Positions 16,857-34,299 of a DNA stretch of 64,000 nucleotides are shown here, piece by piece. The position numbers were made by a program, and so were the translations under genes. This DNA is from Maritimibacter alkaliphilus (GTDB lineage Bacteria > Pseudomonadota > Alphaproteobacteria > Rhodobacterales > Rhodobacteraceae): assembly GCF_019801605.1 (NCBI RefSeq), contig NZ_JAHVIT010000004.1, positions 62,001 to 126,000 of the forward strand, read 5' to 3'. Each line of letters begins with the position of its first letter. Positions within the stretch are counted from its first letter, which is position 1. The notes below the pieces were generated by a model. The model was not told where the DNA came from, searched no databases, and saw only the letters and a list, made by a program, of their open reading frames with translations.

Positions 16857-18344
16857 TCAGGCGACCTTGGGCGCCTTGTAGCGTAGGAAGTAGATGAAGA
16901 GCGCGGTCATGGCATAGAGGCCGAGGCTGATCGGACTGGAGAAGAAGGTCATCACGTCCCCGTTCGAGGTGATCAGCGCCCGGCGCATGTAGAGCTCGAG
17001 GTAGGGGCCGAGGATGATCCCCATCAGCATCGGCACCAGCGGGTAGGACATCAGCCTGAGCGCCCATGCGAAGATCCCGATCGCAAGCGCCATCCACATC
17101 TGGAAGACCGAGTAGGTCGAGGCATAGGTGCCGACCATGGCGATCATCGCGATGAAGGCATAGAGCACGCCCCGGTTCATCCGCGCCAGCCAGATGTAAT
17201 AGGGCCCGAAGACGAGGACCGAGAGGAAGACGAAGACCGCCGCCACCATGAGCGCCGCGAACATCGGCGCGATCGTGGCCATCTCGTTGGTCAGCAGGCC
17301 CGGCCCCGGCACGAGGCCGTGGATCAGCAGCACGCCAAAGATGATCGCCGTCACGCTGTCTCCGGGGATGCCGAGCGTCAGCAGCGGCACGACCGCCCCG
17401 CCGCACATGGCGTTGTTGGCCGATTCCGCCGCCGCCAGCCCCTCGTGGGAGCCGTTGCCGTATTCCTCTGGCTTCTTGCTGACGCGCTTGGCCTCGGCAT
17501 AGGCCACGAAGGAGGCCATCGAGGCGCCGCCACCGGGCAGCATCCCGATCAGCACGCCGATGACCGAGCTTTTGACATAGGTCCAGAAGCCGATCTCGCG
17601 CACTTCCTTCCAGTTCGGCCAGAAGTCCTTGTGGCGCACCTTGAAGGCGGGCGTGTCCTCGACCGTGCGCGGCTTGGAGCCACCCTGAAGCAGCAGCTCG
17701 CAGATCGCGAAGAGACCGATCACCGCAGGCAGCAGCTGCACGCCCTCGATCAGGTTGTAGCTGCCGAAGTCGAACCGCCCCTGCGCCACCATGTTGTCGA
17801 AGCCCACGGTGGAGATCATCAGCCCCAGCGAGACGGTGACGAGGCTTTTCCAGATCGAGCCCTTGGCCACGATGACCACCGTCACCACCGCCATGAACAC
17901 GAGGGCGAACTTGTCCGGCGTGCGGAACATCAGGGCGAACTCGCTCATCGGCACCGCCACGAACATCAGCACCGCCGCGCCGAGCACGCCGCCGATGGAG
18001 GAGGCGAGCGCGTCGAGGCTGAGCGCCTTGGCCCCGTGGCCGCGCTTCATCAGGGCATAGCCCTCCATCGTCGTGATCGCGCCGGAGGCCGCGCCGGGGA
18101 TGTTCACCGTGATCCCGGTGACCGAGCCCGCGTAGATCCCCGACATGAAGATCGCCATCACCATGACGAGCGCGTTGGTCAGCTCCATCGCGAAGGTGAA
18201 GGGCAGCAGCAGCGCGATCGCCAGCGTGGCCGTCAGCCCGGGGATCGCCCCGAAGACGAGGCCCATCAGGAAACCGCCGACGAGGTAGAGGAAGGTCTCG
18301 GGGTTGGCGAGGGCGGCAAAGCCCCCCATGAGTTCGGCGAACAT
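16857..18344 (-). CDS. tctA: TTT-family transporter large permease
   Basis: A 495-residue membrane protein of the tripartite tricarboxylate transporter family, with around eleven hydrophobic segments and the family signature GAIPGLTATLAIALLLP near residue 33-49 plus a second LGIPGDSVTAIIFGVLL. The substrate is a carboxylate delivered by TctC. ATG at 18344 shares one base with the tctB stop. The gene order tctC-tctB-tctA, with a hairpin after tctC, is the classical one. A shared GntR operator lies upstream of tctC. Confidence 0.93.
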   Translation of the reverse strand: MFAELMGGFAALANPETFLYLVGGFLMGLVFGAIPGLTATLAIALLLPFTFAMELTNALVMVMAIFMSGIYAGSVTGITVNIPGAASGAITTMEGYALMKRGHGAKALSLDALASSIGGVLGAAVLMFVAVPMSEFALMFRTPDKFALVFMAVVTVVIVAKGSIWKSLVTVSLGLMISTVGFDNMVAQGRFDFGSYNLIEGVQLLPAVIGLFAICELLLQGGSKPRTVEDTPAFKVRHKDFWPNWKEVREIGFWTYVKSSVIGVLIGMLPGGGASMASFVAYAEAKRVSKKPEEYGNGSHEGLAAAESANNAMCGGAVVPLLTLGIPGDSVTAIIFGVLLIHGLVPGPGLLTNEMATIAPMFAALMVAAVFVFLSVLVFGPYYIWLARMNRGVLYAFIAMIAMVGTYASTYSVFQMWMALAIGIFAWALRLMSYPLVPMLMGIILGPYLELYMRRALITSNGDVMTFFSSPISLGLYAMTALFIYFLRYKAPKVA

Positions 18345-18805: not shown

Positions 18806-18910
18806 CGTCAAGGGAGGAGCCTTTCCCGGAAAGTGATCGGGCGGGGGTCGCCGGTCAGCCTGCGCCATCGTAGCACGGTCCGGCGGGTGCGCGGCACCCG
18901 GTCCGCGGAC

Positions 18911-18937
18911 GACCCGGCCGCAGGGCACGGCCGGGTC
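18911..18937 (-). terminator. Hairpin between tctC and tctB
   Basis: Perfect 10-bp stem GACCCGGCCG (18911-18920) with complement at 18928-18937, 30 bases past the tctC stop. No T-run follows. Such hairpins commonly let the binding-protein gene be expressed more than the permease genes. Confidence 0.6.
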
Positions 18938-18966
18938 GCGGGTCTTCGGGGCGCGTCAGGCGCGGA

Positions 18967-19950
18967 TTACTCCAGCACGCCTGCCGCTTTCAGCTTGTCC
19001 AGCAGGGCCAGCGCGCGGGTCTGGGTCCGCTCGACGTAGGCCTCGGTCTCGGGGCCGTCCATCCAGTAGGCGTTCATGCCGGTGTCGGCAGCCTTCTGCT
19101 GGAACTCGGGATCGTCGAAGGCGGCCTTGAAGCCTTCGGTCAGCTTGGCCTTGACCTCGTCCGGGGTCTCGGCCGGAACGGCCAGCACGCGCATGCCGCC
19201 CCAGATCACGTCATAGCCCAGTTCCTTGAAGGTCGGCACGTCGGGCAGGCTGGGATCACGCTCGGCGCCCATCACCGCCAGCACCTTCACCTGACCGGCA
19301 TCCGCGGCGGAGGAGACGGTGGCGTAGCTCAGGCTCGCCGCGTCGTTCTCGCCCGAGATCAGCGCCTCGCGCTGTTCGGCAGAGCCGTTCGGGAAGGGCA
19401 CGTGGTTCAGCTCGACCCCCAGCTGCTCGGCCATGTCGAGCGCGTGCAGGTGCCAGATGCCGCCGATGCCCGAATCCGACACGGTGACTTCACCCGGCTC
19501 GGCCTTGGCGGCGGCGATGAAATCGTCCAGCGTTTCCCAGCCGGTGTCGGCGTTCACCGCCAGCACGGTAGGATAGAGCGTGATATTGGCAAGGTAGCTC
19601 AGCGTCGAGGTGTCATAGCCCGGCACGAGGTCCTTGTAGGGGACGGTGATCATGCTGTCCCAGGTCAGCGAGCCGATGGTGTAGCCATCGGGACGCGACT
19701 TCATCAGGCGCATGGTGCCGACGCCCGACTGTGCGCCGGTGACGTTCTGGGTGCGGATGCCCACGCCGAGCGGCTCCTCTGCGTATTGCAGGAAGGTGCG
19801 CATCACCGTGTCGGTACCGCCGCCCGCGCTCCAGGGCATGATGTGGGTGATGTCCTTGGTGGGGAAATCCTGCGCGGCCGCAGTCAGGGTTGATGCGGCA
19901 AGCAGCGCTGCGCCGGTCAGGGTCGTGAAGAGACCTTTGGCGAAAGTCAT
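18967..19950 (-). CDS. tctC: TTT-family periplasmic substrate-binding protein
   Basis: A 327-residue Bug/TctC protein with a signal peptide (cleavage near TAAAQ). The usual features are seen: DITHIMPWSAGGGTDTVMR at the first ligand loop, SRPDGYTIG, and VSDSGIGGIWHLHAL at the second. The GGGTDT variant replaces the PGGxxD loop of typical Bug proteins. It is the first gene of the leftward tctCBA unit, and a GntR-type operator candidate lies 87 bp upstream (20037-20056). The ligand is presumably the carboxylate handled by the aconitase X cluster. Confidence 0.92.
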   Translation of the reverse strand: MTFAKGLFTTLTGAALLAASTLTAAAQDFPTKDITHIMPWSAGGGTDTVMRTFLQYAEEPLGVGIRTQNVTGAQSGVGTMRLMKSRPDGYTIGSLTWDSMITVPYKDLVPGYDTSTLSYLANITLYPTVLAVNADTGWETLDDFIAAAKAEPGEVTVSDSGIGGIWHLHALDMAEQLGVELNHVPFPNGSAEQREALISGENDAASLSYATVSSAADAGQVKVLAVMGAERDPSLPDVPTFKELGYDVIWGGMRVLAVPAETPDEVKAKLTEGFKAAFDDPEFQQKAADTGMNAYWMDGPETEAYVERTQTRALALLDKLKAAGVLE

Positions 19951-20036
19951 GTGAGGGACCTCTCTGTTGTGGTTGCGCGGGCTCCGGTGTTTCGGATCCG
20001 CCGGTCGTGGCGCGCCTGCTTCAGCAGGTCGCTATT

Positions 20037-20056
20037 TGTATACAACACAATATACA
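20037..20056. promoter_or_regulatory. GntR operator candidate TGTATA-N8-TATACA (site 1)
   Basis: Perfect arms TGTATA and TATACA with an 8-base spacer, in the gap between the diverging tctC and VOC genes. The same arrangement occurs at 25634, 27110 and 28821, each in a promoter region of the same cluster. Confidence 0.7.
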
Positions 20057-20127
20057 GACAAGAGTGCATTGCAACGGTTTTTCCCACGGCCCATTGTGGC
20101 AGCCGCCAGAAAGTCAGGAGACGGCCC

Positions 20128-21000
20128 ATGAAAACAGCCAATCTGCCCGCCGCCGGAGAGGTCTCGCTCGATCATTCGGGGCATTTCGTGGGGGATGCCG
20201 ACGCCGCGCGGACCGCGCTGGAGGGACTGGGCTTCACGGTCACGCCGCTCTCGGCACAGGTGCAGCCGGATCCGGTGACCGGCGAGGAGCGCCTGACCGG
20301 CACCGGCAATATCTGTGTCATGCTGCCCGAGGGCTACCTCGAGATCCTCGTGCATACCGCCGACACCGCCATCGGGCGCGAGTTCATGGCGGCGCTGGAC
20401 CGGCGCGCGGGCCTGCACCTTGCCGCCTTCGGCGTGGCAGATGCCGGCGCGCGTCATGCGGAGCTGGAGACGCAGGGCCTGAACATGCGCCCCCTGGTGC
20501 ATTTCTCGCGCGAGGTGGCGACCGAGACGGGACAGGAAACCGCCGCCTTCACCGTCGCCCGCCTCGCCGCCGGGGTGATGCCCGAGGGCCGCGTCCAGAT
20601 CCTGACCCATCACAACGAGCCCGCCCTCTGGCAGCCTCGCTACACGACCCACACCAACGGCGCGCAGGCGCTTGCGGCCATCGTCCTCTCCGCCCCCGAT
20701 CCCGCGGAAACGGCAGCACGGTTCGCCCGCTTCCTCGACCGGCCCGCACTGCCCCATGGCGCCGGGCTGCGCATCCCGCTCGACCGGGGCGCGCTGGAGA
20801 TCCTGCCGGAGGCGGGGGCCACCGCCCTTGTCGGGGAGGCCGTCGACCCCGGTCGCTCCGGCTTCGTCGGACTGCGGGTCACGCTGGCCGATCCCGCCGT
20901 GCTTGCCGACAGGCCCGGGGCCCGTCAGGTGGGCGACAGCCTTGTGCTGCCGTTCGGCCCGGCCCTCGGCCCCGGTGTCTGGCTCTTCGATCGGGCCTGA
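20128..21000 (+). CDS. VOC/glyoxalase-like domain protein
   Basis: A 290-residue cytoplasmic protein with two glyoxalase-like halves: the first begins LDHSGHFVGDADAARTALEGLGF, the second AQALAAIVLSAPDPAETAARFARFL. This is the glyoxalase-like type (PF13468-like) without a clear metal triad. AGGAG lies 9 bases before the ATG. It reads away from tctC and shares operator site 1. A paralogue of the same layout is encoded at 40455-41315. The reaction is unknown; a lyase, epimerase or binding role is possible. Confidence 0.75.
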   Translation: MKTANLPAAGEVSLDHSGHFVGDADAARTALEGLGFTVTPLSAQVQPDPVTGEERLTGTGNICVMLPEGYLEILVHTADTAIGREFMAALDRRAGLHLAAFGVADAGARHAELETQGLNMRPLVHFSREVATETGQETAAFTVARLAAGVMPEGRVQILTHHNEPALWQPRYTTHTNGAQALAAIVLSAPDPAETAARFARFLDRPALPHGAGLRIPLDRGALEILPEAGATALVGEAVDPGRSGFVGLRVTLADPAVLADRPGARQVGDSLVLPFGPALGPGVWLFDRA

Positions 21001-21004
21001 CCCC

Positions 21005-21766
21005 TCAGCCGCCCGCAAAGCTGCGCGGGCGCAGACCGGCGTGGAACCACGTGACCATGGAATAGATGTCATAGACCGGCAGGCCGGTCGCGGCCTGCAC
21101 CGCGGCGGAATAGGGCGACATGTTGGTGCACTCCAGCACGATGGCGCCCACCTCGGGGTTCCGGGCCACCAACCGCTCCGCCGCCGCGACCACGTCGGCG
21201 CAGGCAAGCGCGAGGTCGAGGTCATCCTTCTCGGCCTTGATGATGGTGCGGAAGAACTCCACCCCGTCCTCGGTCCCGGTGACCGGCGTGTCGAGCGGCA
21301 CGCTGATCGCTTCCAGATGCGCAGGCGTCAGACCGGCGGCGTTGATGGTGACGATCCCGGGCCTTTTGCCCGGCGGCAGGGTGGCCTGCACCCAGGGCAC
21401 CTGCATCATCGAGGAGGTCGCCACCGGCACGCCCACCGCCGCCGCCAGCTCCTGCTGGTAGATCGACAGGAAGCCGCAGTTGGTGGTGATCGCCTCAGCC
21501 CCAAGGTCCACGAGATCCCGCGCGGCGGCGATGAAATCCTCCAGCAGGCCCCGCGCCCCGTCACAGACCACCCGGTCCGGGCTGGCGCCGCGCACGATCC
21601 GGTAGACGACGGGAAAGGGCCATGTGCCTGCATGGCCCATCTCGCCATAGACCCGGGCAAAGCGGGCCTCCAGCATCAGGATGCCGAGGGGTGCACCGTA
21701 AAGCGCCTTGCCACCCCGCGCGACGGTTTCGCCCGGGGCGCCATAGGGGTGGAGAGGATCGCGCAT
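21005..21766 (-). CDS. Aspartate/glutamate-racemase-family protein
   Basis: A 253-residue protein of the Asp/Glu/hydantoin racemase fold. The two catalytic-type cysteines are in TTNCGFLSIYQ and LECTNMSPYS. The N-terminal part (GILMLEARFARVYGEMGHAGTWPFPV) is that of the broader AMDase/maleate isomerase-like group rather than of MurI. The ATG at 21766 shares one base with the stop of the upstream oxidase gene. It ends the leftward aconitase X operon, convergent with the VOC gene 4 bases away. It may invert or isomerise an amino-acid-like intermediate. Confidence 0.82.
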   Translation of the reverse strand: MRDPLHPYGAPGETVARGGKALYGAPLGILMLEARFARVYGEMGHAGTWPFPVVYRIVRGASPDRVVCDGARGLLEDFIAAARDLVDLGAEAITTNCGFLSIYQQELAAAVGVPVATSSMMQVPWVQATLPPGKRPGIVTINAAGLTPAHLEAISVPLDTPVTGTEDGVEFFRTIIKAEKDDLDLALACADVVAAAERLVARNPEVGAIVLECTNMSPYSAAVQAATGLPVYDIYSMVTWFHAGLRPRSFAGG

Positions 21767-23025
21767 TACGAGAACCGACCGGCCGCGAATGGGGCGAGGT
21801 CTATCTCGGGCGTCTCGCCGGTGACGAGCTGCGCAGCCAGTCGCCCGCTGCGCGCGGAGGAGACCAGGCCCACATGCCCGTGGCCGAAGCAATGCACCAC
21901 GCCCTCAGCGCCGCTGGCCTTGGCGATCACCGGCTTGCCGTCGGGGGTGCTGGGACGCAGGCCCAGCCAGACCTTGGCCTCGCTGGTGTCGAGCCCGGGG
22001 AAGACCGCACCGAGGTGGGTGCGCATGATCTCGGCCCGGCGCCAGTCGGGGCTGGCATCGGGACTGGCGATCTCGACCTGACCGGCGCAGCGGATACCGG
22101 TGGACAGCCGCGTCACAACAACCTTGCGGTCGCCCACCATGACGGAGGTCGTGGGCCCTGGCAGGTTCGCCCCGCCCTCCACCGTCACGTGATAGCCGCG
22201 CTCGCTCTCAAGCGGGACGCGGTCACCGGCCTTCGCCGCAAGGGCCGCCGACCGGGCACCCATGGCGATCACGGCAGAGCCGCAGGAGATGTCCCCCTGC
22301 GAGGTTTCGACCGCCACCAGCTTGCCGCCCTCGACCCGCAGGCCCGTGGCGCGGGCCGCGATCTGGCGCGCGCCCATGGTCCCGGCATAGGCCACCAGCG
22401 CCGCGCAGTAGGCGCCGGGGTTCAGGCACTGCCCGGCCTCGGGCACGTTGACGGCAAAGCCATAGTCCTTCGCGAGGTCCGGCTGGCGCCGCGCCAGTTC
22501 CTCCGCCTCGATCTCCTCGCAGGTGATGCCGAGCTCGCGCCGGATGCGCCAGCCGAGACCATCGGCCTCGTAGCCCGCCCGGTCGCGGTAGACATGCATC
22601 AACCCGCTGGTCGCGTTGATCAACTCCGGCACGCCCGCCCGCGCCGCCATCTCGGCATGGAGCTGCGGCGCGTCCTTCAGCAGGCTGCGCAGCTCGCCCG
22701 CGATCTGGCGCAACTTGGCCTCCGACGAACCGGCAGCGAGATAGCGCAGCAGCCACGGCAGCACCTTGGGCAGGTAGGCGGGCCGCAGGCTCAGCGGCCC
22801 CAGCGGATCGCGGAGCCATTTCGGCACCTGCTTCCAGACCCCCGGCGAGGCGGGCGGCGTCACCGAATGGGACGAAAGCCAGGCGGCGTTGCCATAGGTC
22901 GCCGCCTGTTCACCGCCCGGCGGGCCCGGATCGACCAGCACGACCTTCAGCCCGCGCTCTGCCAGCTGCACCGCCGTCTGGGCGCCGATCACCCCGGCCC
23001 CGATCACCGTCACGTCTGCCTTCAT
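21766..23025 (-). CDS. DadA-like FAD-dependent amino-acid dehydrogenase
   Basis: A 419-residue flavoprotein with the FAD motif VTVIGAGVIGAQTAVQLAERG at the very start and the DadA-type C-terminal GLRPSTPDGKPVI and HCFGHGHVGL segments. Family members oxidise D-amino acids or related amines and pass electrons to the respiratory chain. The start at 23025 has GGGAGA before it. It lies between aconitase X and the racemase-like gene, which suggests that a racemised or cyclic amino acid is oxidised in this pathway. Confidence 0.85.
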   Translation of the reverse strand: MKADVTVIGAGVIGAQTAVQLAERGLKVVLVDPGPPGGEQAATYGNAAWLSSHSVTPPASPGVWKQVPKWLRDPLGPLSLRPAYLPKVLPWLLRYLAAGSSEAKLRQIAGELRSLLKDAPQLHAEMAARAGVPELINATSGLMHVYRDRAGYEADGLGWRIRRELGITCEEIEAEELARRQPDLAKDYGFAVNVPEAGQCLNPGAYCAALVAYAGTMGARQIAARATGLRVEGGKLVAVETSQGDISCGSAVIAMGARSAALAAKAGDRVPLESERGYHVTVEGGANLPGPTTSVMVGDRKVVVTRLSTGIRCAGQVEIASPDASPDWRRAEIMRTHLGAVFPGLDTSEAKVWLGLRPSTPDGKPVIAKASGAEGVVHCFGHGHVGLVSSARSGRLAAQLVTGETPEIDLAPFAAGRFS

Positions 23026-23094
23026 CTGTCGTCTCCCGCCGGCACCACGCCGTGCCATAGTTCTGGCCCCCGCGCGGGCGGCCGACAATCTCTC

Positions 23095-23505
23095 TCATCC
23101 CCGGGCGATGCGCCCCGTGGTACCATCGACCTGCAACGCCTCACCGCTTCGCAGCGCCTCCCAGAAGCCGGGCTCCGGCGCGACGAGCACCGGCACCTCC
23201 GCGAGGAAAGCGCCTTGCGTCACCGAAGGGTCCGGCATCTCGCGCAGGATCAGTGCCGCCGGATGGGTGCCATGGACCTTCAGCTGGTAGAGGAACCGCC
23301 ACGCCCCGGCAGAGCCCCGGCTCGCGGGCAGCACGAGCACCCGGCCCGCCACGCTTTCGCCCAGCAGGTCGCTGGAGCGGCCCACCACCCGGCCCGAGCG
23401 GATGTCGAGATCGCCGAGGAAGGAGAGCGCCGTCTGCGACACGAGCGCCGCGCCCGAGGCCTGCCCCTTCACCACGCCGCGCGCCTGCCAGCCCGCCTCA
23501 CCCAT
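23095..23505 (-). CDS. Aconitase X small (swivel) subunit
   Basis: A 136-residue protein of the DUF126/aconitase X swivel family: DLDIRSGRVVGRSSDLLGESVAGRVLVLPASRGS carries the mobile loop with its catalytic Ser. It overlaps the large subunit gene by 8 bases, so the two are made together. Aconitase X members include cis-3-hydroxy-L-proline dehydratase in bacteria and phosphomevalonate dehydratase in archaea. The substrate here is not known. Confidence 0.88.
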   Translation of the reverse strand: MGEAGWQARGVVKGQASGAALVSQTALSFLGDLDIRSGRVVGRSSDLLGESVAGRVLVLPASRGSAGAWRFLYQLKVHGTHPAALILREMPDPSVTQGAFLAEVPVLVAPEPGFWEALRSGEALQVDGTTGRIARG

Positions 23506-24763
23506 TGCGCCGCCTCCGGGGCAGGAACCGCCCCGTCACGGCGGAGTCCACCGCCAGTTCGCTGGTGGTGAAGAGCGTCGGGCACTGGATCATGTCGCGC
23601 ACGTAATGGGCCTGTTTCGCACTGTCGACGAGGATCGTCCGCAGCTTGGGCGGCATCACCTTCAGCGCCGGATCGGGAGAGCAGGTGCAGGCGAAATGGC
23701 ACGAAATCGGGCAGGTGTCCGTCACCACCCGCGCCCCTGCCGCCAGCATCGGCGCCAGCAGGCCCGCGTCCCGCGCCATCTGGCGCACCGCGCGGCTGGT
23801 GGTGACCCAGAGCTCGACACCCTCCGCCACCCGCTTGCCGGTGAGCAGCGCGGCGTAATGCTTCATCTCCTCGAAGGAGGCATGGGGACAGCCGAGGTGC
23901 ACGAGGTCGAACCCCGCCTCCGCCCCGGTGCAGAACCCGTCGAAGACCCGCGCAATGTCGGCCTCGCTCACCTCGACCTCCGGCAGGCCGGGGGCATCGG
24001 CCTCCGCGCCGAAGGGCGGCGTCACGCCGGGGACAATGAACATCGCCACCCCGCCGGAGGTCGCCATGCCCACCCCCATCGCGTCGAGGTCATCCAGCGT
24101 GGGCCGTGCGGCAAGGCCCCGGATCAGCGGCACGCCGCTGCCCACCGCCGCCCCGATGGCATAGCCGAGCGCGGTGAACTCCGCCGTGCCCTGCGGACGG
24201 GCCGTCACCGTCACCCGGTGGGTGGGCTGGCGGTTGCGATCCAGATGCAGGCCGAAGCGCGGGTAGCGCCCGGTCATCCCGGCATAGACGGCAAAGAACC
24301 CGTCCCGGTTCGACCGCGCGCCAAGGACGGAATTCGCAAACACCGTCACACCGCTTTCGATCGAGGCGATATGCATGTTCCACGTCGGCCAGTGCCCGGC
24401 CCAGTAGGGCGTGCAGGTGAAGGAGGTGGCGCTGCCCATGGCACGATGCGCGGCCTCCGCCCGTTTCTGCAGCAGGCCAAGCGCCTCGGGCGCGCCGGTG
24501 CCCTGCCAGTCACCCATGTCGGCATTGGCGATATTGGTGGAGACGGGCACGACCATCTTCGCGCCCTGCGCCGCCGTCGCCTCGATCAGCTCCACGTCGC
24601 CCTTGTAGAGCGCCATGCCCGCGTGGACATGGGCATAGCCGATCTCGACCATGTCGGGGGCATCGTAAGCCTCACCCAGCTGGACCAGCGCCTCCATCGC
24701 CTGCCGCGCGGCATCGCCTTCGGCACCGTCCAGCAGGGCAAGATCGCGGTCCGAAAGCTCCAT
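23498..24763 (-). CDS. Aconitase X catalytic large subunit
   Basis: A 421-residue protein of the aconitase X catalytic family (DUF521). Seen features: VSTNIANADMGDW, CTPYWAGHWPTWNMHIASIESGVTVFANSVLGARSNRDG, and the cluster-binding-type cysteines in HLGCPHAS and TDTCPISCHF. The enzyme should dehydrate a hydroxylated acid using an iron-sulfur centre. It is the second gene of the leftward operon and starts 3 bases after the end of the aspartate-dehydrogenase-like gene. The mix with DadA, racemase and AspDH-like partners suggests an amino-acid-like substrate. Confidence 0.9.
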   Translation of the reverse strand: MELSDRDLALLDGAEGDAARQAMEALVQLGEAYDAPDMVEIGYAHVHAGMALYKGDVELIEATAAQGAKMVVPVSTNIANADMGDWQGTGAPEALGLLQKRAEAAHRAMGSATSFTCTPYWAGHWPTWNMHIASIESGVTVFANSVLGARSNRDGFFAVYAGMTGRYPRFGLHLDRNRQPTHRVTVTARPQGTAEFTALGYAIGAAVGSGVPLIRGLAARPTLDDLDAMGVGMATSGGVAMFIVPGVTPPFGAEADAPGLPEVEVSEADIARVFDGFCTGAEAGFDLVHLGCPHASFEEMKHYAALLTGKRVAEGVELWVTTSRAVRQMARDAGLLAPMLAAGARVVTDTCPISCHFACTCSPDPALKVMPPKLRTILVDSAKQAHYVRDMIQCPTLFTTSELAVDSAVTGRFLPRRRRNG

Positions 24764-24766
24764 GGC

Positions 24767-25585
24767 TCAGCTGCCAATCCTGAGCGTCGCATTCTCGCGC
24801 CGCAGGGCGGCAAGGATGCTGAGGGCCACCACCATGCTGGTGCGGTTGTTCTGCGGCGAAGGGTAGTTCTGCGAGGTCATCTCGAGCGAGACGGAACTGG
24901 CCTCCACGCTCAGCGTGTGGCGCGCGCCGGGCAGCGTGCCGTCAGCCCGGATGCGCACCTGCGTCCGGTCCAGCCCGATGCCCACGAGGCCCAGCGTCAC
25001 CGCCACGTTGAAGTGGCGCGGGAAATGACCCGCCGCCTCGCGGGCGCTGCCCTCGAAGACCGGCACCGGCCCGGTCTCGGCCGCGGCAAGGTCGATACCG
25101 TTCTCGTGGATGAAGGGTTCATGGGCGAAGGAGGCGGGCGCGATATGCGAGGTCAGCGTGACCGAGGTGATCTCGTCCTCCGAGGCGGCGCGGATGATGT
25201 CGAGGCCCGGCAGCGTGCCGCCCGCGATCTGGAGCGTCGCGCCAGCGGCCTCGGCGATGTCGATGAGGTCGAGGTTCACCGCAAGGGCGCCCACGCTCAC
25301 CGCCACCACGTGACCGCCCGCGCGCAAGCACGGCTCCACCACGTCGCGGAAGCCGTCGTAGGTCGCGCATTCCACGAGGATCGCGTCGTAGGCGGGCGCC
25401 TCGGAGGCCGCGATGACGGGCACATCCAGCCCGAACTCTGCCGCCTTGGCCCGGGCCTTGGCATGATCGCGCGCGGCGATGGCCACGATCCGGATCGCCC
25501 CTGTCGGGTCCGCGGCCAGCTTGGCGGCGATCTGCTGCCCCACGTTGCCGAAGCCCCCCAAAACGATCCGCGTCTCGCCCGCCAT
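24767..25585 (-). CDS. Aspartate-dehydrogenase-like NAD(P) oxidoreductase
   Basis: A 272-residue protein with a Rossmann start (RIVLGGFGNVGQQIAAKL) and the DUF108-type C-terminal domain (FPRHFNVAVTLGLVGIGLDRTQVRI, then NNRTSMVVALSILAAL). L-aspartate dehydrogenase and relatives interconvert an amino acid and a 2-imino/oxo acid. It is the first gene of the leftward aconitase X operon; operator site 2 lies 49 bp upstream. A role in reducing an imine formed by the DadA-like oxidase or the dehydratase is an inference. Confidence 0.8.
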   Translation of the reverse strand: MAGETRIVLGGFGNVGQQIAAKLAADPTGAIRIVAIAARDHAKARAKAAEFGLDVPVIAASEAPAYDAILVECATYDGFRDVVEPCLRAGGHVVAVSVGALAVNLDLIDIAEAAGATLQIAGGTLPGLDIIRAASEDEITSVTLTSHIAPASFAHEPFIHENGIDLAAAETGPVPVFEGSAREAAGHFPRHFNVAVTLGLVGIGLDRTQVRIRADGTLPGARHTLSVEASSVSLEMTSQNYPSPQNNRTSMVVALSILAALRRENATLRIGS

Positions 25586-25633
25586 ATGCCTGCCTGCTCC
25601 ATCAAAGTCTTGACTGATTTCTGTACTCTGTCA

Positions 25634-25653
25634 TGTATACAAATAAATATGCA
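25634..25653. promoter_or_regulatory. GntR operator candidate TGTATA-N8-TATGCA (site 2)
   Basis: One mismatch from the perfect arms. It lies midway between the divergent aconitase X operon and the MmgE/PrpD gene, 38 bp before the latter's ATG. Confidence 0.7.
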
Positions 25654-25690
25654 AGTTTAAATCCTCCCGTTATTTCCCGAAGGACCCGCC

Positions 25691-27076
25691 ATGAGCGACC
25701 GCGCCCCCCTGACCCGTACCCTTGCCGCCTATATCGCGGGCTTCACCCCCGACGCGCTGCCCGCCGAAGTAATGGAGTACACCCGGGTGCTGGCGAAGGA
25801 CGGGATCGGCGTGCTCTATGCCGCGACCCATGAGAGCGTGACCGCCGCGCAGGGCATCTGCGATTTCGTCGAGGAGATCGCGGGCCCCGGGGCCTGCACG
25901 CTGATCGGGCGCAACCGCAAGGTGGACCCGGTGAGTGCGGCGCTGGCCAACGGGACGCTGGGCTATGCCGCCGATTTCGAACCGCACCACCCCGAGGCGA
26001 TCCTGCACCCGATTGCCGTGATGATTCCCACCGCCCTTGCCCTGTCGGAGGCCGAGGGCCGCAGCGGGGCCGAGGCGCTGGCCGCCGTGGCGCTTGGCTG
26101 CGAAATGACCTACCGCGCCTCCATGGCGATGAACCCGCGCGAGCTTTACGACCGCGGCTTCCACCCCTCCGCCATCGCGGGCAGCTTCGGCGCGGCCGCC
26201 GCCGCGTCCTTCCTGCTCGGGCTCACCGAGGAGCAGACGGTGCGGGCGCTCGGCCTTGCCGGGCTTCAGACCTCGGGCCTGCTGGCCTGGCAGGATGACC
26301 CGCGCGAGGATGCCCGCCCCTTCCAGATGGGTCTTGCCGCCCGGAATGGCGTCATGTCCGCGATGCTGGCGAAACGCGGCTTCGGCGCGCCGGACCGGAT
26401 CTTCGACGGTGGCCACGTGGTGCTGGAGGCCTACAGCGACGTGGCCGTCGCCTCGAAGCTGACCGAGGGCCTCGGCACGATCTGGGACGGGGTGATGGAA
26501 CTGGCGATCAAGCCCTATTCCTCGGTCTCCTTCCTGCATCCTGCGCTCGACGCCCTCGTGGGCCTGCTCGACGACAATGCCCTGACCTCGCAGCAGATCG
26601 AGAAGATCACCCTGCGCTTTGCCGAGGCCGGGGCCCATTGCGTCGATGACAACCCGCTCAAGGGCCACTCGGCGCAGTATATCCTGCCGGTGCGCGCGGC
26701 GATGGGGCGGCTGTCCTTCCTCGACCTCTTCATCGACCGGCGCGAGAGCGACCCGGAGGTCGCCCGCCTTGCCGCCAGTGCCGAGGTGATCCGCGACACC
26801 GGCGCGTTCAACGACGCCTTCCCGGATTTCTACATGGGCGAGATCCTCCTGACGCTGACCGACGGGCGCGTCCTCTCGGCCACCTCCAAGGTTGCGCGCG
26901 GCTACCCCGAACAGCCCCTTGCGCAGGCGGAGCTGGACCGCAAGTTCGAGGAGGTCACCGCCACGGTCTGTTCGCCCGCGCGTGCCAAGGCACTGGCGCA
27001 GGCTGCCGAAAATCTCTACAGCGCCGCGGATGTGAGCACGCTGACCGGCCTTCTGGCACAGGCGCCCGATGCCTGA
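25691..27076 (+). CDS. MmgE/PrpD-family protein
   Basis: A 461-residue protein of the 2-methylcitrate dehydratase/iminodisuccinate epimerase/cis-aconitate decarboxylase family. Typical segments are VDPVSAALANGTLGYAADFEPHHPEAILHP and YDRGFHPSAIAGSFGAAAAASFLLGL, plus KPYSSVSFLHPALDA for the KPYP-like active-site strand. The usual DDxH motif reads ADFEPHHPEA, so the metal- or substrate-facing Asp differs and the activity may not be that of PrpD. It diverges from the aconitase X operon and is followed by the GntR gene. Confidence 0.85.
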   Translation: MSDRAPLTRTLAAYIAGFTPDALPAEVMEYTRVLAKDGIGVLYAATHESVTAAQGICDFVEEIAGPGACTLIGRNRKVDPVSAALANGTLGYAADFEPHHPEAILHPIAVMIPTALALSEAEGRSGAEALAAVALGCEMTYRASMAMNPRELYDRGFHPSAIAGSFGAAAAASFLLGLTEEQTVRALGLAGLQTSGLLAWQDDPREDARPFQMGLAARNGVMSAMLAKRGFGAPDRIFDGGHVVLEAYSDVAVASKLTEGLGTIWDGVMELAIKPYSSVSFLHPALDALVGLLDDNALTSQQIEKITLRFAEAGAHCVDDNPLKGHSAQYILPVRAAMGRLSFLDLFIDRRESDPEVARLAASAEVIRDTGAFNDAFPDFYMGEILLTLTDGRVLSATSKVARGYPEQPLAQAELDRKFEEVTATVCSPARAKALAQAAENLYSAADVSTLTGLLAQAPDA

Positions 27077-27109
27077 GACCCGCGGCCGGTTGACGCCAAA
27101 ACGCGACAG

Positions 27110-27129
27110 TGCATACACATTGGAATACA
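27110..27129. promoter_or_regulatory. GntR operator candidate TGCATA-N8-AATACA (site 3)
   Basis: Two mismatches from the perfect arms, 24 bp upstream of the GntR start at 27154, so autoregulation is likely. Confidence 0.6.
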
Positions 27130-27153
27130 TAATAAGATCCGAGGATGCGGACG

Positions 27154-27849
27154 ATGGCCAAAGAGACGAAACCCGCGAAGGCAGGCGCGCCGATGTCCTC
27201 GTCCCACCGGGCCCACGCGCAGCTGCGCGAACAGCTTCTGCGGTCGAAGTTCCTGCCCGGTCAGAAGATCAACGAGGTAGAGATCGCCACCTCGCTCGAG
27301 ATCAGCCGCACCCCGCTGCGCGAGGCTCTGAACCGGCTGGTGGCCGAGGGGCTGCTGGTGGATCGCGGGCGCGGCTTCTCGGTGCCGGGGCTGGAGCCGG
27401 AGATGGTCTTCGACCTCTTCGAGGCACGTGTCGAGATCGAATGCGCCACGGTGCGCCTCGCCTGCGAGCGGGCCGAGGAGACGGAACTGGAGGGGCTCTC
27501 GGACTTCCTGAAGGAGAGCATGGCCGAAAGCCCCGATGCCTCCGTCGACCGGCTGATCGAGCTGGACATCCGCTTCCACGACACGATCGCGGAACTGGCC
27601 CGCAACAAGGTGCTGCGGCAGACGCTCTCCAATCTCAACGACCGGATTCACCTGATCCGCTGGATCGCCATGGAAGGCCGGCGCGAGCGCACCCAGAGCC
27701 AGCACCGCGAGATCCTCGACCATATCCGCGCCCGCGACACCGCGGCCGCCATCGCCGCCATGCGGGAGCATATCCTGCATCGCAACGAAGACATCCTCGA
27801 GGCGATCAAGGCCGCCTACGGGCATGTCTATACCCGTTCCTCCGCCTGA
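27154..27849 (+). CDS. FCD-type GntR transcriptional regulator
   Basis: A 231-residue repressor with an N-terminal winged helix (QLREQLLRSKFLPGQKINEVEIATSLEISRTPLREALNRLV cut as the usual GntR signature, about 20-80) and an all-helical FCD ligand domain whose metal-binding pattern is visible as ELDIRFHDTIAEL and later His residues (SQHREIL, REHILHRNED). ATG at 27154 is chosen because GAGG lies 9 bases before; ATG at 27145 adds three residues. It sits inside the cluster and its own promoter carries site 3, so it is the best candidate to bind the four TGTATA-N8-TATACA sites. Confidence 0.88.
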   Translation: MAKETKPAKAGAPMSSSHRAHAQLREQLLRSKFLPGQKINEVEIATSLEISRTPLREALNRLVAEGLLVDRGRGFSVPGLEPEMVFDLFEARVEIECATVRLACERAEETELEGLSDFLKESMAESPDASVDRLIELDIRFHDTIAELARNKVLRQTLSNLNDRIHLIRWIAMEGRRERTQSQHREILDHIRARDTAAAIAAMREHILHRNEDILEAIKAAYGHVYTRSSA

Positions 27850-27895
27850 GCCCCGTTGGGCTTGGGGCGGCCACCCTCAAAGAGGACGTGACCCC

Positions 27896-28636
27896 ATGAC
27901 CCGATACATCGTCATCGGCGCAGGCTCCGGCATCGGTGCCGCGCTTGCCCGCCAGCTTGCCGCGCCCGAGGTGGAGCTGCTGCTCCACACGGGCTCCAAC
28001 GGGGACCGGCTCGCCCGGGTCGCCGCGGATTGCGAGAAGGCAGGCGCCAAGGTCTCCACCTGCCTCGGCCTGACCGAGGATCCCGCGCTGGTCGAGGGGA
28101 TCGCCGGCTGGCTGGCCGAGGTGCCCGAGGGCGGCCTCAGCGGCTTTGCCTTCGCAGCCGGCTACGCCAAGCTCGGCACGGTCGATACCACGGACCCGGA
28201 GGCGCTGCGCACCGCGCTCGACGCGATGCCGATGGCCTTCCAGCGGCTCTGCACCCTCGTTGCGCCGAAACTGGCCGAGGGCCGGGGCCGCATCCTCTGC
28301 GTCAGCGCCTTCGGCGCCCATCGCGCCAAGACCCACAGCTACGCCCCCACCGCCCCGGCCAAGGCGGCACTGGAGGCGCAGGTCCGCGTCTTCGCCGCCA
28401 ACCTCGCCCCGCGCGGGATCACGGTGAACGCGGTCGTGCCGGGCTTCATCTCCAAGGAAGCGGGCACGCCCTCCTCCCTCACGCCTGAGCAATGGGCCGA
28501 GGTCACCGCGACCATCCCCATGGCCCGGCTGGGGCAGGCGGCGGAAGTGGCGGCGACGGCGGCCTTCCTGCTCTCCGAACCGGCAGGCTATGTCACCGGG
28601 CAGTGCCTGCACGTGAACGGCGGCCTGACGCTCTGA
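27896..28636 (+). CDS. SDR-family protein without the canonical catalytic Tyr
   Basis: A 246-residue protein with the SDR cofactor motif VIGAGSGIGAALA, an AGYAKLG strand and a C-terminal VTGQCLHVNGGL typical of SDRs. The active-site YxxxK should read Y four residues before K in the PAKAAL segment; here the sequence is HSYAPTAPAKAAL, so that place is Thr and the only nearby Tyr is seven residues before the Lys. Either the Tyr has shifted or the enzyme is not a standard dehydrogenase. It follows the GntR gene after 46 bases. AGAGGA is upstream of the ATG. Confidence 0.82.
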   Translation: MTRYIVIGAGSGIGAALARQLAAPEVELLLHTGSNGDRLARVAADCEKAGAKVSTCLGLTEDPALVEGIAGWLAEVPEGGLSGFAFAAGYAKLGTVDTTDPEALRTALDAMPMAFQRLCTLVAPKLAEGRGRILCVSAFGAHRAKTHSYAPTAPAKAALEAQVRVFAANLAPRGITVNAVVPGFISKEAGTPSSLTPEQWAEVTATIPMARLGQAAEVAATAAFLLSEPAGYVTGQCLHVNGGLTL

Positions 28637-28671
28637 CGCTCTGACGCTCTGACGCTCTGACGCTCTGACGC
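28626..28671. repeat. Octanucleotide tandem repeat TGACGCTC x5.75
   Basis: Five full copies of TGACGCTC plus TGACGC, the first overlapping the last sense codons and stop of the SDR gene. Each unit holds a TGA, so slippage would change only the 3' end region and not the protein. Perfect copies suggest recent expansion. Confidence 0.9.
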
Positions 28672-28686
28672 GGCTGTCGGGCACGA

Positions 28687-28730
28687 AAGACTTTTCGAAA
28701 AGTCTTGGGAAAAGTCTTCGAAGACTTTTC
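28687..28730. terminator. Two adjacent perfect palindromes after the SDR gene
   Basis: A 20-bp palindrome (28687-28706; half-site AAGACTTTTC) and a 22-bp one (28709-28730; half-site GAAAAGTCTTC). The arms are related to each other, so alternative folds across both are possible. The ends are T-rich on both strands, which fits a bidirectional terminator for the GntR-SDR transcript. Base content is far less GC-rich than the surroundings. Confidence 0.6.
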
Positions 28731-28820
28731 AGCGCCGGTTGAGAGGGAGGCCCGCAGGTGCCTCCCGTCCCGCCCTTGGCGGAAAAGCCGATCTGCCCCA
28801 TTGCGCGCTGTCGACGTTTC

Positions 28821-28840
28821 TGTATACAAATAGATATACA
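28821..28840. promoter_or_regulatory. GntR operator candidate TGTATA-N8-TATACA (site 4)
   Basis: Perfect arms with an A/T-rich spacer, 86 bp upstream of the ThDP-enzyme start. Confidence 0.7.
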
Positions 28841-28925
28841 CGAACAGATCCCCCGGTGCCCTGCCCCCGCTGGCACCAGAGGGCCCGGACAGGCCGACAC
28901 ATCGGGCCGACAAGGAGAGACAGAC

Positions 28926-30617
28926 TTGGAAAACACGCTCAACGGCGCCGAAGCCATGGTGCGGATGCTGGAAGCCCAGGGTGTGGATCACATCTTTGGC
29001 CTCTGCGGCGACACGACCCTGCCCTTCTATGACGCGATGCACCTGCTCGATCACAAGATCAACCATGTGCTCACCCGCGACGAACGCAGCGCGGGCTACA
29101 TGGCCGATGGCTATTCCCGCGTCACCGGCAAGCCGGGCGTCTGCGAGGGCCCCTCGGGCGGCGGTGCCACCTACATCCTGCCCGGGCTGATCGAATCCTC
29201 CGAAAGCTCCTATGCCACGCTGGCGATCACCACCGACATCTCGGTCTCGACCTACGGCAAGTATCCCCTGACCGAGGTCGATCAGGAGGCGCTGATGCGC
29301 CCGCTGACCAAGTGGAACACGGTGATCAAGCAATCCGCCCATATCCCCCGCATGGTCCGCGCCGCCTTCCGCGCCATGACGACCGGGCGGCCCGGGTCGG
29401 CCCACCTCGGCCTGCCCTACGACATCCAGTACGACAGCGTGGACCCCTCGGACATCTGGGCCGATCCCCGCACCGCCACCTATCCCGCCTACACCACCGG
29501 GCCCGACACCGGCTCGATCGAGGCGGCGGTGGACGCGATCCTTTCCGCCAAGAAACCCCTGATCGTCTGCGGCGGCGGTGTCGTCGTGGCCGGCGCCATG
29601 GACGAGCTTGACCGCATCGCCACCCGCCTGGACATCGCGGTCGCCACCTCGATCTCGGGTCAGGGCTCGCTGGCCGATACGCACCCGAATGCGCTTGGCG
29701 TCGTGGGCTCCAACGGCGGCACCGACCAGACCTGGGAAATGATGCAGGCCGCGGACCTGATCGTCTTCATGGGCTGCCGCGCCGGCTCCACCACCACCGC
29801 CCGCTGGGAGGCCCCCAGCGTCGGCACCCGGATCGTGCATTTCGACGTCGATCCCATGGTCATCGGGGCCAACCTGCCGACCGAAGTCGGCGTCGTGGGC
29901 GACCTGCGCATGTCGCTCGCCATGGTCAATGCCGAGCTCGACCGCCGCGCCCAGGGCGCCTCGACCTTCGGGGGCGCCGCCGCCGTGGCCGACATCAAGC
30001 GCCGCAAGTTCGAGATCTTCGACCGCATCGCGGCCGAGGACAACCGCCCGATCCGGCCCGAGCGCGTGATCTCGGACCTGATGAAGGTTCTGCCCCCGGA
30101 TGCCACCGTCGTCTCCGATCCCGGCACCTCCTGCCCCTATTACTCCGCCTATTACCAGCAGCAGCTGGCGGGGCGCTACTTCATCACCAACCGTGCGCAT
30201 GGCGCGCTCGGCTATTCCATGGCGGCCTCGCTGGGGGCGTGGCATGGCCGTCCCGGCAGCAAGACCGTGGCGCTGATGGGCGACGGCTCCTTCGGCTTCA
30301 CCGTGGGCGAGCTGGAAACCGTCTGCCGCGCGCGGGCGCCGATCACCTTCGTGGTCTTCTCGAACTCCAACTTCGGCTGGATCAAGGCCAGCCAGATGGC
30401 GGACAAGGGGTCGCGCTACTACAACGTGGACTTCGGGCGCGTGGATCAGGCCGCCGTGGCCGCGGCCTATGGCGTGAAATCCTGGCGTGTCGAAGACCCT
30501 GCCGACCTTGAGCGGGTGCTGCGCGAGGCGGTGAACCACGACGGGCCGACGCTGGTGGACGTGATCACCCAGCCGCTGGAGGAAGCCAACGCACCGGTGC
30601 GCCGCTGGATGGGCTGA
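28926..30617 (+). CDS. Thiamine-diphosphate-dependent acetolactate-synthase-like enzyme
   Basis: A 563-residue enzyme with the three ThDP-family domains: the PYR domain (LTRDERSAGYMADGYSRVTGKPG with the catalytic-type Glu), the central domain (KKPLIVCGGGVVVAGAMDEL), and the PP domain with the GDGSFGFTVGELETVCRARAP motif and the matching Asn. It is of the acetolactate synthase/oxo-acid decarboxylase group; the precise substrate is not readable. The start is TTG at 28926 with AAGGAG about 9 bases before; no upstream ATG is in good position. It has its own promoter with site 4 and a terminator after it. It could join or cleave a 2-oxo acid formed by the upstream enzymes. Confidence 0.87.
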   Translation: MENTLNGAEAMVRMLEAQGVDHIFGLCGDTTLPFYDAMHLLDHKINHVLTRDERSAGYMADGYSRVTGKPGVCEGPSGGGATYILPGLIESSESSYATLAITTDISVSTYGKYPLTEVDQEALMRPLTKWNTVIKQSAHIPRMVRAAFRAMTTGRPGSAHLGLPYDIQYDSVDPSDIWADPRTATYPAYTTGPDTGSIEAAVDAILSAKKPLIVCGGGVVVAGAMDELDRIATRLDIAVATSISGQGSLADTHPNALGVVGSNGGTDQTWEMMQAADLIVFMGCRAGSTTTARWEAPSVGTRIVHFDVDPMVIGANLPTEVGVVGDLRMSLAMVNAELDRRAQGASTFGGAAAVADIKRRKFEIFDRIAAEDNRPIRPERVISDLMKVLPPDATVVSDPGTSCPYYSAYYQQQLAGRYFITNRAHGALGYSMAASLGAWHGRPGSKTVALMGDGSFGFTVGELETVCRARAPITFVVFSNSNFGWIKASQMADKGSRYYNVDFGRVDQAAVAAAYGVKSWRVEDPADLERVLREAVNHDGPTLVDVITQPLEEANAPVRRWMG

Positions 30618-30657
30618 GCCCCGCCCCCACGACACAGAATGACCTGACCTGAGGAAA

Positions 30658-30682
30658 ACCGGGGCGGCCCGACCGCCCCGGT
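30658..30682 (+). terminator. Terminator after the ThDP-enzyme gene
   Basis: Perfect 10-bp stem ACCGGGGCGG (30658-30667) and complement (30673-30682) with a 5-base loop, followed by CTTTG and preceded by AAA. Confidence 0.8.
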
Positions 30683-30871
30683 CTTTGCACATCCGGCAAC
30701 CGCGCCGCGGGCTGCGCCATTGACCCGGTGTCAGCCGCCCGCCACTCTGTCCGGACCCGGCCCCACGGGCCGCCCGGGGACAGCACGCCCGAATTTTGAA
30801 GCCCGACTATGACGACAGACTTTGAAGACCGATACCGATTTTCCGATTTCGTTCAGACAGCGGACTTTGCC

Positions 30872-31283: not shown

Positions 31284-32450
31284 TCAGAGCGGCAGACGCT
31301 GCCGCACCAGCGTCGTCCAGTAGGAACAGCCCCAGGCGATCACGTCGTCGTTGAAGTCGTAGAGCGGGTGATGCAGGTCCGCCGAGGGGCCGTTGCCGAT
31401 CTTGATCATCGCGCCCGGCACCTCGTTCAGCATGAAGGAGAAATCCTCGCCCCCCAGCGTCGGCACCATGTCCGTAGTCACGGCGCCTTCGCCCGCAACC
31501 TCGCGGGCGGCCGCCGCGGCCAGCTCGGTCTCCAGCTCGTGGTTCACGGTGACCGGGTAGTGGCGCAGGTACTCGATCGTGCCCTTGCCGCCGAAGGCCG
31601 CGGCGACATGCTCCACCATCGTGGTCAGCCGCTCTTCGACCAGATCGCGGACCTCTTCGCGCAGGGTGCGCACGGTGCCCGTCATCTCCACCGCCTGCGG
31701 GATCACGTTGAAGGCATTGCCCGCATGGATCGTGCACAGCGACACGACAGCGCTGTCCATCGGATCCATATTGCGCGATGTGATCGTCTGCGCGCCCTGC
31801 AGCAGCGCGGCGGCCACCGGCATCGGGTCGATGGCGAGGTTCGGCATCGCGGCATGGCCGCCCTTGCCGGTGATCGTGATCTTGACCTCGTCGACCGAGC
31901 CCATGATCGGCCCCGGCGCAAGCGTGAACTGGCCCACCGGCAGGTTGGGCTTGTTGTGCATCCCGTAGACCTCGTTGCAGGGCCAGCGGGTGAAGAGCCC
32001 GTCGTCGATCATCGCCTTGGCCCCGGCACCGCCCTCTTCGGCGGGCTGGAAGATCACGATGACCGTGCCGTCAAAGGCGCGGCTTTCGGCCAGATGCTTC
32101 GCGGCCCCCAGCAGCATGGTGGTGTGCCCGTCATGGCCGCAAGCATGCATCTTGCCCTCGACCAGCGAGGCGTGGGGCACGCCGGTCTCTTCCTTGATCG
32201 GAAGGGCATCCATGTCGGCGCGCAGGCCGATCATGCGGCCAGACGTGTTGCTTTGCCCCTTGATCACGCCCACGACACCGGTGCGCCCGATGCCCTCGTG
32301 CACCTCGTCAACACCGAAGGCGCGCAGCTGCTCGGCCACGTTGGATGCCGTCCGGTGAACCTCGTACAGAAGCTCCGGGTTCTGGTGCAGGTCGCGGCGA
32401 AATTCTGTGAGGGCGGCGATCTCCTTCGCCACCCAGTTCTCGACGGCCAT
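31284..32450 (-). CDS. M20-family amidohydrolase
   Basis: A 388-residue metallo-amidohydrolase of the hippurate hydrolase/AtcC-like group. Metal ligands are visible in MHACGHDGHT, PAEEGGAGA and the late GGEDFSFMLNEVPGAM, and the lid-domain residue in GKGGHAAMP. It hydrolyses an N-acyl or N-carbamoyl amino acid in the cytoplasm. It is the last gene of the ABC-transporter operon, one base after the ATC-hydrolase-family gene. If that partner is a true ATC hydrolase, this protein would match the N-carbamoyl-cysteine amidohydrolase step. Confidence 0.88.
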   Translation of the reverse strand: MAVENWVAKEIAALTEFRRDLHQNPELLYEVHRTASNVAEQLRAFGVDEVHEGIGRTGVVGVIKGQSNTSGRMIGLRADMDALPIKEETGVPHASLVEGKMHACGHDGHTTMLLGAAKHLAESRAFDGTVIVIFQPAEEGGAGAKAMIDDGLFTRWPCNEVYGMHNKPNLPVGQFTLAPGPIMGSVDEVKITITGKGGHAAMPNLAIDPMPVAAALLQGAQTITSRNMDPMDSAVVSLCTIHAGNAFNVIPQAVEMTGTVRTLREEVRDLVEERLTTMVEHVAAAFGGKGTIEYLRHYPVTVNHELETELAAAAAREVAGEGAVTTDMVPTLGGEDFSFMLNEVPGAMIKIGNGPSADLHHPLYDFNDDVIAWGCSYWTTLVRQRLPL

Positions 32451-32451
32451 G

Positions 32452-32958: not shown

Positions 32959-32972
32959 GGGGGTTGGCTCCG

Positions 32973-34271: not shown

Positions 34272-34299
34272 CTCGGTGGCTCCTTGGTCAATCGGAAGC

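Follow-up and report, generated by a model that had tools for sequence, protein, structure and literature searches.

The window analysed here is the whole 64,000-nucleotide stretch of Maritimibacter alkaliphilus, a bacterium related to marine roseobacters (contig NZ_JAHVIT010000004.1, positions 62,001 to 126,000). An open reading frame (ORF) listing combined with Pfam and NCBIfam scans revealed a compact gene cluster at window positions 16857-30617, from the transporter gene TctA through the gene of a thiamine diphosphate (ThDP)-dependent enzyme, built around a two-subunit aconitase X (AcnX). The cluster is a real, conserved and uncharacterised catabolic regulon around a particular AcnX group, a variant built from known kinds of parts. 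The original prediction, made from the sequence alone, had proposed a pathway around AcnX at 20128-30617; all the parts it named were recovered by the scans, and the importer it assigned to the pathway does belong to the cluster but lies outside that interval. On the minus strand are the genes of an aspartate-dehydrogenase-like (AspDH-like) protein, the large and small AcnX subunits, a DadA-like enzyme and an Asp/Glu-racemase-like protein (AGrac), followed further along by TctC, TctB and TctA. The plus strand carries those of the VOC, MmgE/PrpD, GntR-FCD, SDR and ThDP proteins. The features are as follows.

16857..18344, minus strand: TctA, large membrane subunit of a tripartite tricarboxylate transporter (TTT); PF01970, 430 bits
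18344..18928, minus strand: TctB, small membrane subunit of the TTT; PF07331, 64.8 bits
18967..19950, minus strand: TctC, solute receptor of the TTT; PF03401, 157 bits; 11 solved relatives
20037..20056, plus strand: operator-like site in the VOC/TctC divergent promoter region; exact match
20128..21000, plus strand: VOC (Glyoxalase_3) protein; PF13468, 84 bits, scored on a longer ORF from 19951
21005..21766, minus strand: AGrac, PRK07475 subfamily; PF01177, 39 bits; NF005679, 311 bits, cut-off 231
21766..23025, minus strand: DadA-like FAD (flavin adenine dinucleotide) amino-acid oxidoreductase; PF01266, 179 bits; NF001933, 211 bits, below the cut-off of 383
23095..23505, minus strand: AcnX small (swivel) subunit; PF01989, 74 bits, cut-off 27
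23498..24763, minus strand: AcnX large subunit; PF04412, 355 bits, cut-off 31.5; own group in the tree
24767..25585, minus strand: AspDH-like protein; PF01958, 82 bits
25622..25641, minus strand: operator-like site in the AspDH/MmgE divergent region; exact match
25634..25653, plus strand: second operator-like site, overlapping the former; 1 mismatch
25691..27076, plus strand: MmgE/PrpD-family protein; PF03972, 190 bits
27110..27129, plus strand: operator-like site upstream of gntR; 1 mismatch
27145..27849, plus strand: GntR/FCD transcription regulator; PF07729, 100 bits; PF00392, 55 bits
27896..28636, plus strand: SDR-fold protein without the catalytic Tyr; PF13561, 144 bits
28821..28840, plus strand: operator-like site upstream of the ThDP gene; exact match
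28923..30617, plus strand: ThDP-dependent enzyme, acetolactate synthase/decarboxylase class; PF02775, PF00205, PF02776

The likely gene starts are 20128 for VOC, kept from the original prediction, 21766 for AGrac, about 23025 for DadA, about 27896 for SDR and a TTG at 28923 for ThDP, the last being preferred because it agrees with the start of the orthologues and keeps the operator-like site at 28821 upstream of the gene. The AspDH-like and AcnX large-subunit genes are spaced by 3 bases, the two AcnX genes overlap by 8 bases, and the ATG of AGrac overlaps the stop of DadA by 1 base; these few-base gaps and overlaps fit polycistronic units among AspDH-like/AcnX and DadA/AGrac. Shadow-frame ORFs with no Pfam match were discarded on the plus (20007-21065 and 27069-27899) and minus strands (20032-21225, 25670-27130, 27016-27825, 27806-28957 and 28593-30692). 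Family profile scans gave a single match in the own genome to each of the AcnX, MmgE and AspDH C-terminal families. At 28637-28740, 3' of the SDR gene, lie a short tandem repeat with units resembling GACGCTCT and inverted repeats resembling AAAGACTTTTC, possibly a terminator.

A search across species genomes for the AcnX large subunit, using six exact 8-residue patterns that miss remote members of the group, yielded 25 loci, the nearest of which belongs to Pseudooceanicola nanhaiensis (98%). Synteny was assessed by tblastn at 38% identity or more over at least half of the protein, short contigs being counted. The partners present in these loci are the large (25) and small (24) AcnX subunits, AspDH (19), MmgE (17), AGrac (14) and SDR (12), followed by the less constant ThDP (10), VOC (9), TctC (8) and DadA (7); all these counts are lower bounds, since several contigs end near AcnX. 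The full set including TctCBA occurs in four of the nine long Rhodobacteraceae loci (L033, L035, L036 and L045, from the genera Chachezhania and Pseudooceanicola). L034 lacks AGrac and has a ThDP gene of merely 33%, L038 lacks DadA, AGrac and ThDP and has a displaced MmgE, and L039 is without ThDP, VOC and TTT, while the fetched stretches of L040 and L041 stop in the DadA/VOC region. Scattering of the genes in relatives, which the original prediction had named as a refutation, is not borne out, although their conservation is uneven, with some absent or moved. The partners that accompany AcnX over the widest range are AspDH-like, MmgE and AGrac, and DadA, VOC and TTT are mostly confined to Rhodobacteraceae. 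Elsewhere the order is ThDP, MLE-type enolase, AspDH, AcnX (L042 and L053), L042, L044 and L053 have less similar DadA-like genes (34-35%), and other importers appear: TRAP-TAXI in L048 (scored) and L039 (by clustering), and the polar-amino-acid ABC type in L042 and L053 (by clustering and weak profile scores) and in L050. In L054, L055 and L057, two AGrac copies flank AcnX, and an LL-diaminopimelate-aminotransferase-like gene and a malate/lactate-type dehydrogenase are present. The AcnX group is rare: at E < 1e-120 it was found in 4 of 390 genomes of the order, own included, and not in the two other genomes of the same genus in that draw. In a draw of 398 genomes of the phylum, among which those listed belong to the same family, the own genome was the sole match.

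Alignment of the intergenic region 5' of AspDH from 11 sequences revealed an invariant TGTATACA followed by TACA. The operator pattern TGTATACANNNNNNWRTACA, derived from three window sites, matched the window five times at up to one mismatch, versus no match in each of 100 shuffles; in the 4.91-Mb genome the same five sites were the only matches, and a reversed control gave none. These sites precede TctC/VOC, AspDH/MmgE (two, overlapping), gntR and ThDP. As three of the five sites built the pattern, the independent evidence consists of the remaining two, of which one lies immediately upstream of gntR, the lack of any other genomic site at up to one mismatch and the recurrence at corresponding positions in relatives. 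Among the nine long Rhodobacteraceae loci (L033-L036, L038-L041 and L045), an exact or 1-mismatch operator precedes AspDH in all nine, VOC/TctC in eight, ThDP in six and gntR in five, and the AspDH site is present on the short contig L037 too. In Salipiger pallidus (L039), a 1-mismatch operator lies just upstream of a displaced DadA-AGrac-TRAP unit, and in L034 one lies at the 33% ThDP gene. Salipiger mucosus (L038) has, in the region 17280-20791, an extra exact operator followed by a CaiB-type coenzyme A (CoA)-transferase-like gene (181.6 bits, below cut-off), an acyl-CoA-dehydrogenase-like gene and two dehydratase/hydratase-like genes. In the whole family the exact operator was found in 11 of 295 genomes, own included, against 8 of 295 for the reversed control; a single site is thus without value, and the weight lies in the clustering of sites. 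Loci found by the operator search include L078, L080 and L084, with sites at ThDP-GntR genes, and G215, which contains the cluster itself; the other short ones contain none of the cluster genes, and the longer stretch L099 has a 26% GntR only. L095 combines a ThDP gene (75%) carrying the operator with TctCBA, next to what we take to be malate synthase G and GlcG-like genes.

The whole cluster at 16857-30617 behaves like a single regulon. The common regulator of the original prediction corresponds to the GntR/FCD gene within the cluster, and the operator-like motif lies before the units. FCD-type GntR proteins often bind palindromes of such kind, and we infer that the GntR protein is the binder of this motif. 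It is very improbable that the genes are merely chance neighbours: the patchy spread, with 4 of 390 order genomes and two congeners without the AcnX group, would suit such an origin, but it is countered by the common operator and by the recurrence of the full set in four loci of two genera and of large parts in further loci.

In the tree, the window AcnX large subunit and those of the 25 loci (26 rows) form one side of a 100/100 branch, the other side comprising AtAcnX, TkAcnX and 25 other family AcnX proteins; the 25 loci were preselected by similarity to the window protein, a warning of long branches was raised, chiefly for two family rows, and the deeper joins are uncertain. In AtAcnX, Glu292, Ser293, Lys530, Tyr534 and Ser70 are reported to act on the carboxylate, hydroxyl and alpha proton (available text of PMC8184944). 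The aligned catalytic residues E136, S137, K383 and Y387 are kept in 26/26 rows, the TkAcnX row ending before the Lys and Tyr positions, and the general-base Ser of the swivel subunit (Ser of RGS) is also kept. Furthermore, C117, C292 and C351 occupy the positions of the archaeal [4Fe-4S] enzyme and are joined by a fourth, C355, in 26/26 rows. The window AcnX is thus probably, from its sequence, a [4Fe-4S] hydro-lyase of an uncharacterised subclass.

The substrate-holding residues tell a different story. Trp35, Cys71, Thr72 and Asp203 of AtAcnX hold hydroxyproline (PMC8184944, in the text available), and W35, C71, T72, D203 and C510 correspond in the window protein to Leu, Ala, Gly, His or Ala (depending on the alignment) and Ile. 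A cis-3-hydroxyproline role is the sole one given to bacterial AcnX in the literature found, where AcnX and an MLE-type enolase serve as alternative dehydratases (PMC5144071, as far as its text was available). Nevertheless, these residue losses and a score of 271.6 bits against the NF051439 equivalog cut-off of 700 make it very improbable, and it was rejected for the window AcnX on residues and tree together. The cis-3-hydroxy-L-proline pathway with LhpI (available parts of PMC5144071 and PMC8184944) does share with the cluster an AcnX hydro-lyase, an imine followed by a reductase, and the enolase as alternative dehydratase; the window AcnX differs in its two subunits, its lack of the substrate residues and its AspDH-like neighbour, and those parts of the two papers do not mention a TTT importer, ThDP, MmgE or AGrac protein for hydroxyproline clusters. 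The archaeal phosphomevalonate dehydratase (AcnX type IIb; PMC10040528, text available in part) likewise has two subunits and three Cys for [4Fe-4S], whereas the window AcnX stands in a bacterial catabolic context and has lost the phosphomevalonate residues: Thr63/Val64 of the small subunit are replaced by Ala/Gly and the Gly48-Val49-Ser50 phosphate loop of the large one by HVHAGMA. A mevalonate role was rejected on the same two grounds. Lacking either set of landmarks, this two-subunit bacterial AcnX fits, on its residues, types IIc-f, whose function is given as unknown in the accessible text of PMC8184944 and PMC10040528. Features specific to the group are H47 at or beside the Asp203 position (25/26 rows), an HWPTWNxH stretch (26/26 rows) and an Arg after GSAGAW (GSAGAWR) in 25/25 small-subunit rows. 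Two domains of unknown function (DUFs) share a taxonomic distribution according to the available part of PMC3597751, and DUF521 is said there to lean to amino-acid metabolism.

The partner enzymes depart from their nearest described relatives as well. The AspDH-like protein contains an Asp_DH_C domain and, in all rows, the His aligned with that of TM1643 AspDH, which is catalytic; it falls below the cut-offs of all eight NCBIfam AspDH families matched (best 197.7 bits, 253 needed). The closest solved relatives of MmgE are Bacillus subtilis IRG1 (109 bits) and iminodisuccinate epimerase (108 bits). Where these two enzymes have KPxHxG, a catalytic stretch, 18/18 MmgE rows have RPFQMG, which makes a function as iminodisuccinate epimerase or cis-aconitate decarboxylase unlikely. 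The same replacement speaks against the cluster degrading an aminopolycarboxylate of the iminodisuccinate kind with MmgE as the epimerase. The rank of the epimerase as second-best solved relative and the fit of aspartate-like products to AGrac and the AspDH-like protein favour such a route, but the cluster proteins also gave no Pfam match to a C-N lyase, and we consider it improbable.

AGrac scores above the threshold for NCBIfam PRK07475, which bears the name 'hypothetical protein', and its C97 and C213, both Cys of the Asp/Glu racemase superfamily, are invariant in 16 rows. Arylmalonate decarboxylase loci, in the available text of PMC4996985, resemble the window in that a member of the Asp/Glu racemase superfamily is encoded close to TTT/TRAP importers and MR/MLE enolases; that activity was rejected for AGrac, which keeps both Cys, and the decarboxylase motif DALLISCGxL (PMC4996985) is absent from its sequence. 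The Tyr of the SDR motif YxxxK is Thr or Ser in 13/13 aligned rows, so that the classical motif is missing and the SDR is atypical, as originally predicted; a protein of this kind is perhaps not a redox enzyme. The ThDP enzyme matched 56 NCBIfam families and reached none of the cut-offs of the 25 that were listed, and in an alignment with BbmA it has Glu at the place of the Glu that usually activates the cofactor in ThDP enzymes. TctC has 11 solved relatives, including BugD, Bug27 and terephthalate-binding proteins; they do not single out a ligand, the best of them bearing a family name only.

These results led us to a putative model in which the cluster works as a single GntR-controlled catabolic regulon, and very probably it does encode one co-regulated catabolic pathway. 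TctCBA would import a carboxylate, from whose beta-hydroxy acid part AcnX would take water. The adjoining AspDH-like enzyme, as a reductase of the iminosuccinate type, may then act on the resulting imino- or amino-dicarboxylate. D and L forms would be interconverted and oxidised to a 2-oxo acid by AGrac and the DadA-like flavoenzyme, and the ThDP enzyme would decarboxylate or cleave this 2-oxo acid. MmgE might work on a polycarboxylate C-H centre as an enzyme of the epimerase or dehydratase type. The AcnX of the known pathway dehydrates a beta-hydroxy amino acid, and a reductase then converts the imine so formed into an amino acid (PMC5144071, text available in part); by analogy, the position of AcnX beside an AspDH-like enzyme suggests the same dehydration-reduction logic for an amino-dicarboxylate. 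The substrate would most likely be a beta-hydroxylated amino-di- or polycarboxylate of the 3-hydroxyaspartate or 3-hydroxyglutamate kind. The order of the steps and the substrate are deduced from residue conservation and neighbouring genes. No described pathway with this gene set was found in a search of open-licence papers, in line with the original prediction.

The Bhc enzymes of the beta-hydroxyaspartate cycle include a pyridoxal-phosphate (PLP) aldolase, dehydratase and aminotransferase, and no such PLP family is represented among the cluster proteins, to which that search was confined. What the proposed route would share with this cycle (BhcABCD; PMC11166783, available part) is the logic of hydroxyaspartate dehydration followed by iminosuccinate reduction; the genes of the two differ.

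Several observations weigh against the model. Since AcnX lacks the amine-binding Asp203 of cis-3-hydroxyproline dehydratase, its substrate is not necessarily an amino acid, and the AspDH-like enzyme could run oxidatively. ThDP (10/25) and DadA (7/25) are inconstant partners of AcnX, though truncated contigs lower these counts. The operator before a CoA-transferase-like gene in L038 points to a CoA-ester step outside the scheme. In L054, L055 and L057, the last two from Acidimicrobiia, no AspDH-like gene was detected, and the likeness of ThDP and MmgE falls to 24-28%. Moreover, L042-L044 and L046-L057 gave no operator site, and none was present in any locus outside Rhodobacteraceae, which limits the demonstration of co-regulation to this family. 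In view of the missing Asp, the L038 gene, the variable ThDP and DadA and the three loci without AspDH-like, the scheme as a whole, with its chemistry, reactions, order and substrate, is put forward tentatively, as somewhat short of an even chance.

Polycarboxylates are the usual substrates of TTT importers and MmgE/PrpD enzymes, and a nitrogen-free, citrate-like hydroxy-polycarboxylate could be the substrate of AcnX and MmgE, leaving the AspDH-like, DadA-like and AGrac proteins in a side branch. Such a substrate would agree with the loss of Asp203 and with the CoA-transferase-like gene behind the operator in L038, and the conserved Arg and His of AcnX could bind a second carboxylate. It sits poorly with the AspDH-like protein being the commonest AcnX partner after the small subunit (19/25) and with the amino-acid-type ABC importers of L042, L050 and L053; we regard it as rather unlikely.

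Of 149 family genomes, 43 contain relatives of AGrac (E <= 1e-40), the own genome being counted among them. At 20 such places (9 to 20 kb each), no AcnX, AspDH-like, MmgE, SDR or VOC gene was found at E <= 1e-10; these AcnX-free places contain ThDP (at least 54%) in 14, a DadA-like gene in 13, a TRAP permease (at least 74%) in 13, a GntR relative in 10 and an MLE-type enolase in 9, the TRAP and enolase queries having been taken from L134, one of the 20. The L134 enolase closely resembles two solved proteins named as 'muconate cycloisomerases', 3i6e and 3i6t. In Ruegeria pomeroyi the arrangement is ThDP-GntR-AGrac, with ThDP about 80% identical. The window cluster looks like this AGrac-ThDP module with TTT replacing TRAP, extended by AcnX, AspDH-like, MmgE, SDR and VOC genes. 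No description of the module was found in the open-licence papers searched.

Other mixtures of the same genes lie on plasmids: AGrac, an FAD oxidoreductase and AspDH-like with an amino-acid ABC importer; AspDH-like and AGrac with a several-part flavin dehydrogenase and RidA; and, in L059, MmgE, AspDH-like and ThDP with a family-3 solute-binding protein and no AcnX match. These mixtures suggest amino or imino acids as substrates.

A more far-reaching possibility, which we regard as doubtful, is that the AcnX group represents a third aconitase X function: a [4Fe-4S] enzyme that dehydrates beta-hydroxylated amino-dicarboxylates to an imine, which a dedicated AspDH-like enzyme would reduce, feeding a new pathway joined to the AGrac-ThDP module. 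If true, these two enzymes would form the iron-sulfur equivalent of the pair made up of hydroxyaspartate dehydratase and iminosuccinate reductase. Should the substrate be a hydroxylated amino acid of marine origin, the cluster would represent an additional way of using dissolved organic nitrogen. An AcnX that fits types IIc-f is found here in a closed regulon with an operator-like motif, an importer, partner enzymes and close relatives in named strains, a setting that makes its substrate accessible to binding, induction and knock-out tests.

The AGrac-ThDP module, which GntR, DadA-like, MLE-type enolase, LysR and TRAP genes often accompany, is seen for example in L134, L141 and L145 and in the Ruegeria loci L063 and L076. 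The Agrobacterium Ti/At plasmid regions L058, L064 and L065 carry AspDH-like, ThDP or AGrac genes, with amino-acid importers in L058 and L065, and resemble opine-type catabolic sets. A malonyl-CoA-synthase gene lies near the cluster in L036, L040 and L041, without an operator (L041 scored 772 bits, cut-off 558; L036 and L040 by clustering). Next to the cluster, at window positions 31284-39532, are genes for an M20 peptidase, an ATC-hydrolase-domain protein, a second DAO enzyme (DAO2) and a peptide-type ABC importer; among the compared loci, M20 and DAO2 adjoin the cluster solely in the sister strain L045.

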